A stretch of 64,000 bases of DNA from Gloeocapsa sp. PCC 7428 (GTDB lineage: Bacteria; Cyanobacteriota; Cyanobacteriia; Cyanobacteriales; Chroococcidiopsidaceae), in assembly GCF_000317555.1 (NCBI RefSeq), contig NC_019745.1:1054001-1118000 (forward strand), given 5' to 3'. The position numbers and the translations under genes were made by a program. The notes under the pieces were generated by a model. The model was not told the DNA's origin and searched no databases. It saw only the letters and a program-made list of their open reading frames with translations. Shown piece by piece: positions 33,977 through 58,526 of the stretch (positions within the stretch are counted from its first letter, which is position 1; the number at the start of each line of letters is the position of its first letter).

Positions 33977-34108
33977 TGCACTTTAATTCCAGTCTTTTTG
34001 ACAATATTAACTATTTTCTCATACTGGTTTTTGCTATTTTGAAGCTTGGCGATTTTAATTGCGCTTGACAAACCTTGTCTACCGTCGTGGACAACATCTG
34101 TTTTGTAG

Positions 34109-42534: not shown

Positions 42535-42609
42535 AGGTGCGGCTTCTTCGTAATTAAATACTGTGGGTTAGAGGTGACGATCAATACTTCTTCGTATTAA
42601 AAAAGCCTT

Positions 42610-42654
42610 CCGACTGAAGTCGGGGCTACCGAGCGAAGTGTGCATACGCACACT
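42610..42654. repeat. Two-hairpin palindromic repeat, copy 1
   Basis: Hairpin one, CCGACT-GA-AGTCGG, and hairpin two, AGTGTGC-ATAC-GCACACT, are joined by a 13-base linker GGCTACCGAGCGA. The same architecture, with the same linker length, recurs at 56639-56685 in the opposite orientation. This layout matches a class of MITE-like palindromes widespread in cyanobacterial genomes. Confidence 0.75.
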
Positions 42655-42785
42655 AAAACGAAAGAATCTCAGTAATTTTGCTGAAGATGACTTTGTTTAG
42701 ACTTTCTGCATCAATGTTTCGCTTGCTAGCTATAGTGAACATAGGTTTGTCTTATCTTCTCGCTCAACGGCAAGATTAAAAGGAG

Positions 42786-52889: not shown

Positions 52890-54227
52890 CTATGCTATTT
52901 GTGTCGAAAACCACAAATCACAAAGACAAGCCCAGCTTCTAGGCGAACGAGTAGAACTTTTGCTACCTCGTTCCTCACGATACTTTCGTTCGGTGAGTTT
53001 TTGCCAACCTCTAGCTGCTATGTTATAGCTGCCATTAAGGTCACAATTATAGTGTTTGCCTGTATTAAATGTAGCTAAAGTATAGTTTTTGCTATCTCTT
53101 TTTAGAAATCCCGAACCATCAAAAGCTAACTTAGAGGTGTAAGCAGCTATTACGGATATTATTTTTCCACCTAACTCAATCCATTTATTTTGAGTTAACG
53201 TAAAAATTAAAGATTTTAACCAACCGTGAAAACGTTGTTTTAAGTTAGAACGTTTTTTTCCACCTTTTGGTTTCCAGTTTTTAAGGTTCTCAAAAACTAT
53301 AGCTTCAGTCTTAAAACTTTTAGCTATATTTACTATTCGCTTAGAAACGATATGACCTATTTGTTGATTAATATTTCTACATTTACGATATGTATGTTTG
53401 CAGAAACCACAAGATAATTTTTTCGTTTTCTTCGCTTTCATAGATATAGATTTCAGTCGCTTATCTCGTCGGTCTATGTCTCTTCCAGGGTGAATAAATT
53501 CACGATAGATTACAGTACCTTCTTGACTTACAACTGAAACAGTAGCTGTTGTATTTATTCCTAAATCAACAGCCAAAACTACTCCTGATTTTGTTATCTT
53601 TTCAGGATTGCACTCAAATGGAACTGATAAGTGACCTTGTTTACTACTAACAATTAATGAAGGAGATTTTATTTGATTAGTCTCTACTTGATGTCGTTCT
53701 CTTAGAGAGATAATAGGTACAGAAATCCAAATCCAATCTGAACCTGTAAAGACTTTGATCTCAACAATTTTAAACTCATGCAATTTATAACACTGACCTT
53801 TGTATAGAGAAGGATAGCAGCCAGTATCAGGATTAAGAACTGGTGGTTTTGCATCTCTACGTTTTCTAATACCACTTTGCCATTCATAATATCGTGTCAT
53901 GTAACTACTAACTTGACCAACTGCAAACATAATTGCAGCACGTCTTAAGTAACTAGGAAATTTATGAAATGACTTATTGAATTGTGGGTATTTAGGTTTA
54001 GTGTTTTTACTAGTTGCGTGTACTAATTTTTCTACAGCAGGTACAACTTGGTCAGACTTTAGACCTCCTAACTCCACCCAGTGAGTAGACACGACTGTTA
54101 CTAGAAATCTACACAGACGGCGATATTCTTTTACCGTTAAAAGCATTAATTCTTTCTGCTCTCTTGTTGGCGAAAGCTTCCATTTGTCTGTTCTGATAAT
54201 TTTCTTGTAACTAGTTTTTTGTGTCAT
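52890..54227 (-). CDS. tnpB: TnpB-family RNA-guided endonuclease / IS605 OrfB
   Basis: A 445-residue TnpB. The RuvC-like nuclease is split: the first acidic motif in VVLAVDLGINTTATVS, the second in EAIVFENLKNW, and the third Asp in HYNCDLNGSYNIAARG. The first half carries the Arg/Lys-rich nucleic-acid-binding part. The usual C4 zinc finger between motifs two and three is degenerate: the region TSKLAFDGSGFLKRDSKN has no CxxC. A Cys pair (CGFCKHTYRKC) lies earlier instead. TnpB enzymes use an omega-RNA to cut the empty donor site and keep the element in place. Start ATG 54227. Confidence 0.88.
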   Translation of the reverse strand: MTQKTSYKKIIRTDKWKLSPTREQKELMLLTVKEYRRLCRFLVTVVSTHWVELGGLKSDQVVPAVEKLVHATSKNTKPKYPQFNKSFHKFPSYLRRAAIMFAVGQVSSYMTRYYEWQSGIRKRRDAKPPVLNPDTGCYPSLYKGQCYKLHEFKIVEIKVFTGSDWIWISVPIISLRERHQVETNQIKSPSLIVSSKQGHLSVPFECNPEKITKSGVVLAVDLGINTTATVSVVSQEGTVIYREFIHPGRDIDRRDKRLKSISMKAKKTKKLSCGFCKHTYRKCRNINQQIGHIVSKRIVNIAKSFKTEAIVFENLKNWKPKGGKKRSNLKQRFHGWLKSLIFTLTQNKWIELGGKIISVIAAYTSKLAFDGSGFLKRDSKNYTLATFNTGKHYNCDLNGSYNIAARGWQKLTERKYREERGSKSSTRSPRSWACLCDLWFSTQIA

Positions 54228-54258
54228 AGTAAATATAGTGTACTACATAGAGATAAGA

Positions 54259-54678
54259 ATGGCAAGGAGTTTAAGGTCTTTTGCTCACAGTCGTTGCGAC
54301 ATTCAGATTCATATAGTGTTTGTTACTAAATTCAGACATCCTGTATTAAACGAGCAGATAGAGTATGAAATAATTGAAATGTGCAAAAATATATGTGAAA
54401 AGAATAGATGTTACTTAAAAGAAGCGAAAGCTGATTTGGTTTTAAAAGACCATATACATTTATTAATAGATTTTGCACCTGACGTTTCTGTTTCGACTAT
54501 TGTTAATACAATGAAGACTGTAACAAGTAGAGAAATTAGAAAACGACACGCACAATATCTAAAACCTTTTTATTGGAAACCTTTCTTTTGGAAGCGTGGA
54601 TATTGTGCAGTATCAGGTGGTGGAGCAAGCATAGAGGTTATTAAGCAATATATCCAGTCACAAGGAAATGAAGATTAA
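54259..54678 (+). CDS. tnpA: IS200/IS605-family Y1 transposase TnpA
   Basis: A 139-residue HUH single-strand transposase. The HUH motif is HIH at residues 65-67 (KDHIHLLIDF) and the catalytic Tyr is Y131 (VIKQYIQSQ). FVTKFRHPVL and FYWKPFFWKRGYCAVSGG are family hallmarks. An in-frame GTG at 54238 is possible, but ATG 54259 gives the canonical N terminus. All catalytic residues are present and the length is normal, so it is probably functional. Confidence 0.92.
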   Translation: MARSLRSFAHSRCDIQIHIVFVTKFRHPVLNEQIEYEIIEMCKNICEKNRCYLKEAKADLVLKDHIHLLIDFAPDVSVSTIVNTMKTVTSREIRKRHAQYLKPFYWKPFFWKRGYCAVSGGGASIEVIKQYIQSQGNED

Positions 54679-55775: not shown

Positions 55776-56426
55776 TTACCCAAACAACAAATTAGTCATA
55801 AAAACAATACCAATTGAAGCGATCGCTAAACCACAAAGTCGCATGATTTGTCGATTTGGTGTTTTGTGAGTGATCAAATTACCTATCGCACGCGCTAACA
55901 TTGCTACACCATACTGAATAATGGTGAATCCTAGTAAGTAAGCAACTAAAGGCATCATTCCGGCACCAATAATTGCTTCTGCGTAAGCGTAGCCGTGAAA
56001 TAAACCAGCGATCGCACCTAAAATGAGTAACACAATCCAATCAGGTTTACGTGGAATCGCTAGCATTGCGCCAAAGATGACCACGGATAAGGCGATCGCA
56101 ATTTCTGCTGCTGGTAAATCGAAGTTGAGTAAATGAATTCCTGTTCCTACGAGTGCGGCTAAAACAAATCCTGCTGGAATGACAGCGCCATTTACCTGTC
56201 CTGTGGCGATGAAACCAATTGCAATAACAAACGCCAAATGATCTAAACCAATCACTGGATGCGCTAAGCCTGAGAGAAATCCCTCAACAAAATTTGTTGG
56301 CGTTTCGCCTCCTGTGGCGTGATGTGCTAAGGCTTGTTGTACTGTGCTTAAAAAGATGATCCCTAGACTAGCACTTACAATAAAAGGATTCAGTCGCCGA
56401 AATGGCGCAAAATGCTTACTGGACAT
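55776..56426 (-). CDS. hupE: HupE/UreJ-family nickel/cobalt transporter
   Basis: A 216-residue membrane protein. The signal-like N terminus ends VQQALA, and the mature chain would start His-His-Ala-Thr-Gly. Six membrane segments follow. The family motif HPVIGLDHLAFVIAIG (HPxxGxDHxxxxxxxG) is near residues 56-71, and a second His-bearing helix is GLFHGYAYAEA. HupE/UreJ proteins take up Ni or Co. The cobalamin-riboswitch-like leader upstream points to cobalt for B12 synthesis. It is monocistronic. Confidence 0.88.
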   Translation of the reverse strand: MSSKHFAPFRRLNPFIVSASLGIIFLSTVQQALAHHATGGETPTNFVEGFLSGLAHPVIGLDHLAFVIAIGFIATGQVNGAVIPAGFVLAALVGTGIHLLNFDLPAAEIAIALSVVIFGAMLAIPRKPDWIVLLILGAIAGLFHGYAYAEAIIGAGMMPLVAYLLGFTIIQYGVAMLARAIGNLITHKTPNRQIMRLCGLAIASIGIVFMTNLLFG

Positions 56427-56524
56427 ACTCTGTACCTCGCAGATAAATCGGTAATTGATACCTAGCTACTTTATGCAGAAATGATTCAAAACACAATGTT
56501 TTGCTTTCTAGGCGATCGCAGCTT

Positions 56525-56735
56525 GGTGTAAACTCCCTTCGGCAGGCATTCTGACTTTAAATTTTGAGTTCTCAGTTTGGAGTTAGATTGACTTACCTTT
56601 GCTCAAGTACGCGCTCTTGGAAAGACTTTGATTAATATAGTCCACCTCCGTGGACTTCTTTTGTCTAGAGGCGAATTCATTCGCCAAGCTTTCCCCGTTA
56701 CCTCTGGTATCCAACCGAACCGATGGGAGAATCAT
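56525..56735 (-). promoter_or_regulatory. Cobalamin-riboswitch-like leader, interrupted
   Basis: On the minus strand the 3' part has AAGTCAGAATGCCTGCC (56541-56557), a clear B12-box match, 115 bases before the hupE ATG. The 5' part has CGGTTGGATACC and GGTAACGGGGAAAGC (56688-56702), resembling the GGGAA side of the cobalamin aptamer. Between them, where the conserved GGTG..AATCC and CCCGCAACTGT segments should be, lies a 47-base two-hairpin repeat followed by unrelated sequence. The aptamer therefore seems split or partly replaced, and B12 binding is doubtful. Confidence 0.55.
56639..56685. repeat. Two-hairpin palindromic repeat, copy 2, inside the hupE leader
   Basis: AGTCCAC-CTCC-GTGGACT, a 13-base linker, then GGCGAAT-TC-ATTCGCC. 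It has the same build and linker length as 42610-42654, in opposite orientation. Sequences of the AGTCCAC...GTGGACT / GCGAAT...ATTCGC form are common MITE-like repeats in cyanobacteria. Confidence 0.75.
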
Positions 56736-56780
56736 TTTATCACTGTTCAGCAGTTGCAATGAATTTAGTTTTGAGAAGCT

Positions 56781-58526
56781 TTATTGCAATAATTCTTTCA
56801 TTTGATGCTGGTTCCACAATGTACGGTATAGTCCTGGCTGTTGCACAAGTTCCACGTGAGTTCCTGCTTGCACAATTTGACCTTGATCCATGACAAAAAT
56901 ACGATCAGCAGTTGCGGCGGCGGACATTTGGTGCGAGATGAAGACAACGGTTTTTCGTTGTGTTCCGCGTGAGAGGTTGTTGAGAATTTCGGTTGCGGTT
57001 TGATTGTCTACGCTGGATAAAGCGTCGTCGAGAATTAATACGGGTGCATCGACTAACAAAGCCCGTGCTAAAGCAGTTCGTTGTCTTTGTCCGCCAGAAA
57101 GTGTAATACCGCGTTCGCCAACTATGGTTTTGTATTGATGCGGAAAATTGAGAATTTCTGGATGAATTTGCGCTTGTTTTGCACTATACTCAACTTCAGT
57201 TTGTTCGCTTAAAGGATCGCCGTAGCGAATGTTGTTTTTGATTGTGGTACTGAAGAGAAAACTATCTTGGGGAACGTAGGCGATCGCACTACGTAAGTCG
57301 TGTAGTTTGATTTGAGTAATATCGTTACCGTCTAAAAAGAGTTGTCCTGGTTCAATGTCGAGGAGGCGGGGGATAGCATTTGCAAGCGTTGACTTTCCTG
57401 CACCGATGGGACCAACAACGGCGACAGTCTCTCCTGGCATAATCTGGAAGCTAATTTCTTTTAACGCTGGTATTTTAGAACCAGGATAGGTAAAGCTTAA
57501 GTTTCTGGCAATGAGTTCACCTCGGACAGGTTGAGGTATCGCGATCGCCGCATTAGTGTCTTGAATGTTTGGTGATACAGTCAAAATTGATTCAATGCGA
57601 TCAATACTGACTTCGCCACGTTGATAAGCTGTAATGGTAAATCCTAATAGTGCGGTGGGAAAAACAAGTCGCTCGACGTAGAGTATGAGAGCAATAAAAT
57701 CACCTATAGAAAGAGTACCAGCAATTAGCTGTCCTGAACCCAACCATAAGAGAATAAGTAAGCTGACGTAGGCAAGTCCACTGACAAGCGGAAACAAAGT
57801 GTTGCGTGTTTTTGCTAACTTTAGATTCGCATCGAGTAACTGCTGATTTTTGTGGCGAAACGCACGGCGTTCGTTTTGCTCCTGTGCATAAATTTTGATC
57901 AGGGCAATACCGCTCATGTCTTCTTGGATCAGTTCGCTCACTGTAGAGAGTTCTTCTTGCACCTGTTGCTGTTCTTTACGGAGGCGATCGCTGAATAGCT
58001 GCACCAAAAACATCATGACTGGGTAAACGGCGATCGCGGCTAGCGTGAGTTGCACGCTAATTGCCAGCATGACGGGAAGTGTTAAAGCATAAGCAAATAT
58101 CGTATTCGCGATGCTCAAAACGGCAAATCCTAATAACCGTCGAATATTATCAACATCGCTCGTTGCACGGTTAATTAAATCACCTGCGGTATTCGCGGCA
58201 AAATAGGATGGCTCAAGCCTTAATAAATGTTCAAAAATTTTTTGTTTGAGGTCAAACTCAACTTGGCGTCCCACACCAAATAGCGCTACTCGTGACACCA
58301 TGCGGATGACCCACATAACGGAACTCAGCACAAAGATGAGTACGACATACTGAATAACTTGCCCAAAGCTAAACGTAACTTGCAGCGTGTCAATAATGTT
58401 ACGAATCAGTAAAGGGATATAAACACCTAAAGCATTAACAATCAATAAAGCCAAGATTCCTACTGTACACGTTCGCCAGTGAGGACGTAAGTACGAAGCA
58501 AGTTTAGCCAGCCTTGAATTTGCCAT
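56781..58526 (-). CDS. ABC exporter, fused permease and ATPase (MsbA/MdlB type)
   Basis: A 581-residue half transporter expected to dimerise. The N-terminal membrane domain (about 1-310) has six helices. The ATPase has Walker A GPIGAGKST (an uncommon Ile in the loop), Q-loop VPQDSFLFS, signature LSGGQRQRTALARAL, Walker B LILDDALSSVD with Ala in place of the usual catalytic Glu-Pro-Thr region, and H-loop FISHQ. D-D-A rather than D-E-A removes the catalytic glutamate, typical of the weak site in heterodimeric exporters. The substrate is unknown. It lies downstream of psaB, separated by a terminator. Confidence 0.88.
   Translation of the reverse strand: MANSRLAKLASYLRPHWRTCTVGILALLIVNALGVYIPLLIRNIIDTLQVTFSFGQVIQYVVLIFVLSSVMWVIRMVSRVALFGVGRQVEFDLKQKIFEHLLRLEPSYFAANTAGDLINRATSDVDNIRRLLGFAVLSIANTIFAYALTLPVMLAISVQLTLAAIAVYPVMMFLVQLFSDRLRKEQQQVQEELSTVSELIQEDMSGIALIKIYAQEQNERRAFRHKNQQLLDANLKLAKTRNTLFPLVSGLAYVSLLILLWLGSGQLIAGTLSIGDFIALILYVERLVFPTALLGFTITAYQRGEVSIDRIESILTVSPNIQDTNAAIAIPQPVRGELIARNLSFTYPGSKIPALKEISFQIMPGETVAVVGPIGAGKSTLANAIPRLLDIEPGQLFLDGNDITQIKLHDLRSAIAYVPQDSFLFSTTIKNNIRYGDPLSEQTEVEYSAKQAQIHPEILNFPHQYKTIVGERGITLSGGQRQRTALARALLVDAPVLILDDALSSVDNQTATEILNNLSRGTQRKTVVFISHQMSAAATADRIFVMDQGQIVQAGTHVELVQQPGLYRTLWNQHQMKELLQ

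Follow-up and report, generated by a model that had tools for sequence, protein, structure and literature searches.

A REPIN-like element in place of the ligand-binding core of a cobalamin riboswitch ahead of hupE, and its probable movement between cyanobacterial genera

The 354-nt gap between an ABC transporter gene and hupE, on the minus strand of the window (the whole 64-kb stretch of DNA analysed here, from Gloeocapsa sp. PCC 7428, a cyanobacterium with a genome of 5 contigs and 5,882,710 bases), houses the relic of a cobalamin riboswitch. In cyanobacteria HupE is a cobalt importer under a B12 riboswitch, according to excerpts of PMC7689651, which also give its HPxxGxDH motif; the PCC 7428 translation reads HPVIGLDH. 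Judged by substitution rates, hupE is still under purifying selection, because dN/dS lies at 0.12–0.22 in all 15 pairs formed by six genomes. A consensus scan found no promoter ahead of hupE; a putative −10 region is retained in 6/6 close genomes with one base varying, including the leader-less genome G002. No terminator-like site directed at hupE was found, and a role of the repeat described below as a transcription terminator was rejected because the sole terminator-like site faces away from the gene. In the following features of the locus, the P1 strands are assigned from the alignment to intact leaders, the RF00174 structure of the G004 leader and the minimum-free-energy pairing of the PCC 7428 leader itself.

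56781–58526, minus strand: ABC transporter gene, the upstream neighbour (Pfam PF00664/PF00005), used for a gene tree
56734–56745, minus strand: putative −10 region, CAGTGATAAAAT, placed by eye in the leader alignment
56720–56729, minus strand: 5′ strand of P1, CTCCCATCGG
56690–56696, minus strand: GGGGAAA, the 5′ side of P3 and the final native bases ahead of the element
56597–56688, minus strand: foreign stretch of 92 nt, a 3′-truncated copy of a dispersed REPIN-like element, delimited by alignment with G001, G004 and G014
56670–56685, minus strand: element hairpin A, GGCGAATGAATTCGCC, a perfect hairpin, from the element consensus
56639–56656, minus strand: element hairpin B, AGTCCACGGAGGTGGACT, a perfect hairpin and the sole match in the window
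56540–56556, minus strand: B12 box, AGTCAGAATGCCTGCCG, retained
56533–56542, minus strand: 3′ strand of P1, CCGAAGGGAG
56429–56443, minus strand: expression-platform hairpin (P13/L13), UCUG-CGAGGUA-CAGA, surviving; its loop contains the ribosome-binding GAGG
55776–56426, minus strand: hupE, encoding a 216-aa HupE/UreJ-family cobalt permease, intact (Pfam PF04955, E 1e-40)

The relic runs from 56729 down to 56533 and keeps P1, the 5′ side of P3 and the B12 box. A first-pass annotation of the sequence had recognised the B12 box and the 5′ GGGGAA side, and both are borne out. RF00174 gave no match at its gathering score against the whole 64-kb window and nothing at E ≤ 10 against 56200–57200 or the fetched locus holding the PCC 7428 leader (L002), so neither side of the repeat is matched by RF00174 alone in the native sequence; yet this result is overruled by the orthologous alignment described below and by a clade-specific covariance model (R1), built from the aptamers of 20 relatives without the PCC 7428 locus, which finds 56739–56524 on the minus strand with 37.9 bits and an E value of 5.7e-9 over 64 kb. 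Two intact, RF00174-positive leaders left out of the model alignment, L009 and L022, score 118.2 and 90.6; together these values indicate that both outer sides of the PCC 7428 aptamer are real beyond chance and that its core is missing. The leader of a second genome, G010, scores 38.4. Since the shell retains such a score and the fold predicted for the PCC 7428 leader has P1 paired (the one predicted for G010 does not), the relic appears incompletely decayed, which could mean a recent loss or some residual role.

What has been lost is defined by orthologous leaders from close relatives, of which G001 and G002 belong to the genus of PCC 7428 and G004, G010 and G014 to the genus Gloeocapsopsis (G010 and G014 by the kinship table). 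RF00174 matches the leaders of G001, G004 and G014 with 39.9, 57.5 and 45.6 bits, and matches none of those of PCC 7428, G010 and G002. After GGGGAAAG (GGCAAAAG in G001, GGGGACAG in G014), the three intact leaders read TCCGGTGTAAATCCGG...CCCGCAACTGTGAAAG; at the same point PCC 7428 and G010 read CTTGGCGAAT..ATTCGCCTCTAGACAAA.GAAGTCCACGGAGGTGGACT and more, up to the common GTAAGTCAATC. This comparison, which the first-pass annotation had proposed and which, by using relatives naturally free of the element, also addresses what an RF00174 search with the repeat excised would ask, reveals that 47 native nucleotides are gone from PCC 7428 and that the foreign stretch stands in their place. In the RF00174 structure of the G004 leader, the 47 nt correspond to P4, P5/L5, P6 and the foot of a peripheral arm, and they hold 18 of the 41 columns that are invariant in the 20 relatives, loop and junction residues among them. 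The annotation had thus been right that a two-hairpin repeat replaces the central core, and right about the relic, the repeat and its position before hupE; the riboswitch is not split, as it had also put it, since the core is replaced, and the two hairpins it placed within 56639–56685 belong to the longer foreign stretch, 56688–56597. Without the P4–P5–P6 core and the UCCCG of L5, the PCC 7428 aptamer is very probably dead, and we infer that adenosylcobalamin binding, and with it control over hupE, has very probably been lost.

The foreign stretch belongs to a dispersed family. Hairpin B has a chance expectation of 0.02 in the window, at up to 3 mismatches. With the hupE locus counted, a 101-nt query from the leader has 31 matches in the PCC 7428 genome at E ≤ 0.01 and a 66-nt query has 25 at E ≤ 0.001. 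At the latter threshold the 66-nt query matches 6 of 19 family genomes and none of the other 13, and the six are confined to the genus of PCC 7428 (25 matches in PCC 7428, 17 and 5 in two congeners) and the Gloeocapsopsis genus (at least 40, at least 40 and at least 41), so that match numbers vary between species from 5 to at least 41. We aligned copies in 29 rows, 28 of them from PCC 7428 (the hupE copy included) and one being the G010 hupE copy; the rows derive from 30 loci fetched with the 101-nt query, two rows having been dropped as duplicate stretches. The consensus, of about 150 nt, reads AAAGCTTGGCGAATGAATTCGC-GCTA-ACAAACAAAGTCCACCTNCGTGGACT, a spacer, and then AGTGTGC..GCACACTTTGTTTNGGTAGCCCCGACTTCAGTCG..GGGCATCTGTGATTCATGCA, its right half being present in only part of the 29 rows. 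In hand-transcribed consensus halves, the reverse complement of the left half aligns to the right half over 39 columns, and 0 of 1,000 base shuffles aligned as well; on this alignment the halves are inverted copies of one unit, the layout given for REPINs in excerpts of PMC3116915. By a strict pattern, the foot of the right unit is NTAGC in 15 of 29 aligned copies and GTAGC in 10 of the 29; GTAG REPs carry a GTAG foot according to the part of PMC3733652 consulted.

Filled and empty states of this insertion are both found among the relatives, yet 47 native nucleotides have also been lost. The G010 insert retains the right end of the element (GGGCATCTGTGATTCATCC), which the PCC 7428 copy lacks. 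At the left junction, an AAAG is also the left end of the element; because it is common to the aptamer and the element consensus, the event may have been steered by microhomology. Hairpin A has GA at its centre in PCC 7428 and TC in G010 (L005), so that one hairpin is the exact reverse complement of the other, a difference that could reflect an inverted palindrome or a pair of substitutions. Two other stretches of the window match the element in part, 42605–42657 and, weakly (E 0.024), 34044–34092. When the right part of the leader served as query, 12 of 19 family genomes gave matches at E ≤ 0.1; outside the hupE leaders of PCC 7428, G010 and G004, the listed matches span 22–38 nt and mostly cover a AACTCAAAA-like stretch.

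Separately, an IS200/IS605-type pair (a Y1 transposase and an OrfB/TnpB-like gene) occupies window positions 52890–54678, about 1.1 kb downstream of hupE, and was not found in the 12–13-kb hupE regions of five close relatives. PF01797 (Y1_Tnp) has 3 matches in the PCC 7428 genome at E ≤ 0.001. A search for a RAYT beside the element found no element match at E ≤ 1 in the 3.4-kb loci of two of these genes, and the third locus, also of 3.4 kb, has element matches of only 10–14 nt (E 0.19–0.68). A link between the element and the IS200/IS605 genes was rejected, there being no convincing copies near the three Y1_Tnp genes.

How the intact riboswitch would act on hupE is suggested by its expression platform. 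We compared 30 riboswitch loci, comprising 22 from the hupE search and, from RF00174 matches read beyond hupE loci, 5 before other genes and 3 of cbiX type. The motif GCGAGG, which includes the ribosome-binding site, lies at most 109 nt after the aptamer match within a potential hairpin of 3–10 pairs in 27/30 loci, and the stem of this hairpin differs in sequence between loci but remains paired (for example ATCTG/CAGAT and CATCC/GGATG). L5 carries CCCGC in 26/30 loci, and all 26 have GCGAGG in a potential hairpin, although these counts are not independent because the loci are related; in the 4 loci lacking CCCGC, GCGAGG is absent from 3 and present in L014 (L5 = TACCGC). GCGAGG can pair with the UCCCGC of L5 with one mismatch (GCG.GG against CC.CGC), a pairing that covariation cannot prove because L5 and L13 are nearly invariant in these related loci. 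Kissing of L5 with L13 is the published mode of repressing corrinoid riboswitches, with an L5 consensus of UCCCG, in the excerpts of PMC10653944. Energy folding of whole leaders, intact or broken, did not show clearly and consistently whether the ribosome-binding loop is accessible and, being uninformative on this point, is not used as support. In the cbiX-type riboswitches (L001 1501–1650, L109 and L110) both the CCCGC of L5 and the GCGAGG hairpin are absent, and so these probably use another expression platform.

In the intact relatives, then, a translational adenosylcobalamin riboswitch would control hupE: bound B12 would let L5 (UCCCGC) kiss the GCGAGG loop before the start codon, and translation would be blocked. 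In PCC 7428, replacement of the ligand-binding core (P4, P5/L5 and P6) by the REPIN-like copy would have inactivated the riboswitch. With L5 lost and the ribosome-site hairpin left without its partner, the leader is predicted not to sense B12 and always to permit hupE translation, so that hupE has probably been freed from vitamin B12 control and would be expressed regardless of B12. Loss of B12 control over cobalt uptake, which the first-pass annotation had offered as one of two readings, is the better of them given the absent core and the missing L5. Taken as a whole, the account in which core replacement inactivated the riboswitch, made hupE independent of B12 and was followed by spread of the broken core through recombination is one that we hold with considerable confidence.

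Leaders of other genomes place this loss in a series of states. Matches to hupE were found in 32 of the 60 genomes searched, PCC 7428 included, and RF00174 matches 22 of the 30 hupE loci fetched (8/11 and 14/19); L019, L020, L025, L027 and L031 are among the loci without a match. In 14 of the 22 positive loci, no more than 164 nt separate the end of the RF00174 match from the hupE match; in the other 8 the riboswitch lies more than 250 nt upstream of the hupE match and probably serves another gene, but these 8 were retained both for model R1 and when hairpins were counted. GGGGAA is present in 20/22 positive loci, the exceptions being G001 (GGCAAA) and G014 (GGGGAC). The G001 leader (L003 2246–2425), the sole one of its genus with an RF00174 match, has the lowest RF00174 score among the positive hupE loci and carries mismatches in P1 in addition to GGCAAA; its riboswitch may be losing function too. 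In G002 the whole leader is gone: 83 nt separate the ABC stop codon (inclusive) from the hupE start (L006), the start codon comes directly after a GGGGAAAACTGT remnant, and a −10-like sequence is retained. The three genomes of this genus thus have altered (G001), replaced (PCC 7428) and deleted (G002) leaders.

The same broken core occurs in G010, and several observations bear on how it came to be in two genera. First, gene trees of the ABC transporter and of the adjoining psaB (named from its sequence) join G010 with G004 with support 1.0, and the ABC tree joins PCC 7428 with G001 with support 0.999. Second, identity between the G010 and G004 leaders is 99% and 95% in two upstream 100-nt windows and 96% downstream, and only 70% and 81% in the two core windows, where PCC 7428 and G010 are 95% and 91% identical. 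Third, of the sites that divide the four genomes two against two, all 27 between −310 and −120 group PCC 7428 with G010; outside the tract 18 of 75 do so and 57 are concordant (12 sites of the third pattern, all outside the tract, were left out of these counts). Because 21 of the 27 lie inside the element they are not independent; the remaining tract sites group PCC 7428 with G010 in 6 of 6 cases (Fisher p 4.1e-4 against the surroundings). The shared segment is delimited by informative sites as follows.

56560–56712, minus strand: minimal tract common to PCC 7428 and G010 against the gene trees, with outer bounds 56510–56754

The tract therefore measures from 153 nt (−286 to −134) up to 243 nt (inside −328 to −84). 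Because so short a tract contradicts the flanking gene trees, the broken core has probably moved between the genera by recombination: it would have spread between the genus of PCC 7428 and a Gloeocapsopsis-genus species in a short homologous-recombination tract. The hupE gene tree is mixed, placing PCC 7428 with G010 (support 0.865), and discordant sites recur at 200–600 (6 against 1); the history is thus more complex than one transfer, perhaps with several rounds of recombination in this region.

Both states are present in both genera, and to the eye the G002 remnant TTCAGTTGG looks like the broken type, as would be expected had the common ancestor of the two genera carried the broken leader and had G001, G004 and G014 regained intact leaders by recombination. 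At least two regains would be required, and intact leaders occur throughout the order (the 22 of 30 hupE loci with RF00174, 14 of them within 164 nt), and we regard this history as unlikely. The near identity of the broken leaders in PCC 7428 and G010, at a hupE dS of 0.34, together with retention of P1 (in PCC 7428) and of the ribosome-site hairpin, could also speak for an element that has become a new B12-independent regulatory module of hupE and is kept as such in two genera. Recent transfer accounts equally well for the identity, however; the two leaders differ by 29 nt in length and in predicted fold, in single-sequence folds the element was not seen to pair in a conserved way with the ribosome-binding site, and a new module is accordingly quite improbable. 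Abundance of the element in both genomes (25 matches in PCC 7428, at least 41 in G010) and an AAAG microhomology able to direct insertion would suit independent insertions at the same place, but the left junction, the lost stretch and six flanking substitutions outside the element are all common to both, making this very unlikely. Least probable is the annotation's other reading, in which a peripheral loop or arm tolerates the repeat while a drifted core still binds B12: P1, the P3 5′ side and the B12 box are kept, and long peripheral arms, partly of simple repeats, occur in the intact L009, L011, L012, L016 and L022, but in the orthologous alignment the repeat takes the place of P4–L5–P6 and the arm foot with their 18 invariant columns, the sequence past the hairpins resembles the element spacer and right part and not a drifted core, and RF00174 finds nothing at E ≤ 10. 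The annotation's suggestion that a hairpin substitutes for an aptamer stem fails as well, because those 18 columns, loop and junction residues included, are lost with the stem and because these hairpins are found at many other places in the genome (25–31 matches, this one included).

Returning to core replacement followed by transfer, one speculative extension, which we think unlikely, is that the broken leader acts as a transferable 'off-to-on' allele, kept since B12-independent cobalt uptake is favoured, with the hairpins inert or a new filler that keeps the architecture of P1 and the ribosome-site hairpin.

The relic is best explained as a dead riboswitch in which both the RNA and the element that inactivated it are of known kinds, and it does not represent a new class of system. 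It resembles the translational cobalamin riboswitch (RF00174, with an L5–L13 kissing loop) in its P1/P3 shell, its B12 box, its position before hupE and an expression platform whose hairpin loop carries the ribosome-binding site; it differs in lacking P4, P5/L5 and P6 and any RF00174 match, and is predicted not to bind. The element resembles the GTAG-tagged REPs and REPINs (GTAG-12, -15 and -16 in cyanobacteria) in being dispersed, in its two inverted palindromic units and in the GTAG-like foot of its right unit, a comparison with the published families at the level of layout and foot motif; it differs in its length of about 150 nt, in an extra inner hairpin per unit and in that no flanking tyrosine transposase was found. 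In the parts of the literature consulted, a shared replacement with transfer and a ladder of states is not described, and the nearest precedent comes from pneumococcus, where the trp operon has a BOX element between two T-box riboswitches; regulation there seems kept in the account excerpted from PMC3049150. Both cases place a small repeat inside a riboswitch leader; as far as that excerpt goes, BOX sits between two whole T-boxes, whereas here the repeat replaces the ligand-binding core.

Loss of a riboswitch is usually visible merely as an absence. Here, six close genomes present intact, altered, core-replaced and deleted leaders before a conserved gene, so that it can be tested directly in what order B12 control over cobalt uptake is lost and with what consequence. 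The locus also offers an example of a small palindromic element destroying a riboswitch, the broken version of which apparently passed between genera on a tract no longer than about 240 nt.

Elsewhere, the PCC 7428 genome retains one RF00174 riboswitch (41.9 bits), ahead of a sirohydrochlorin-chelatase-like gene, named from its sequence. In G014 (L087), psaB is only 81–83% identical to that of the other five genomes; because this is lower than the 87–90% of the adjacent ABC gene, it suggests that the psaB photosystem gene of G014 has been replaced.
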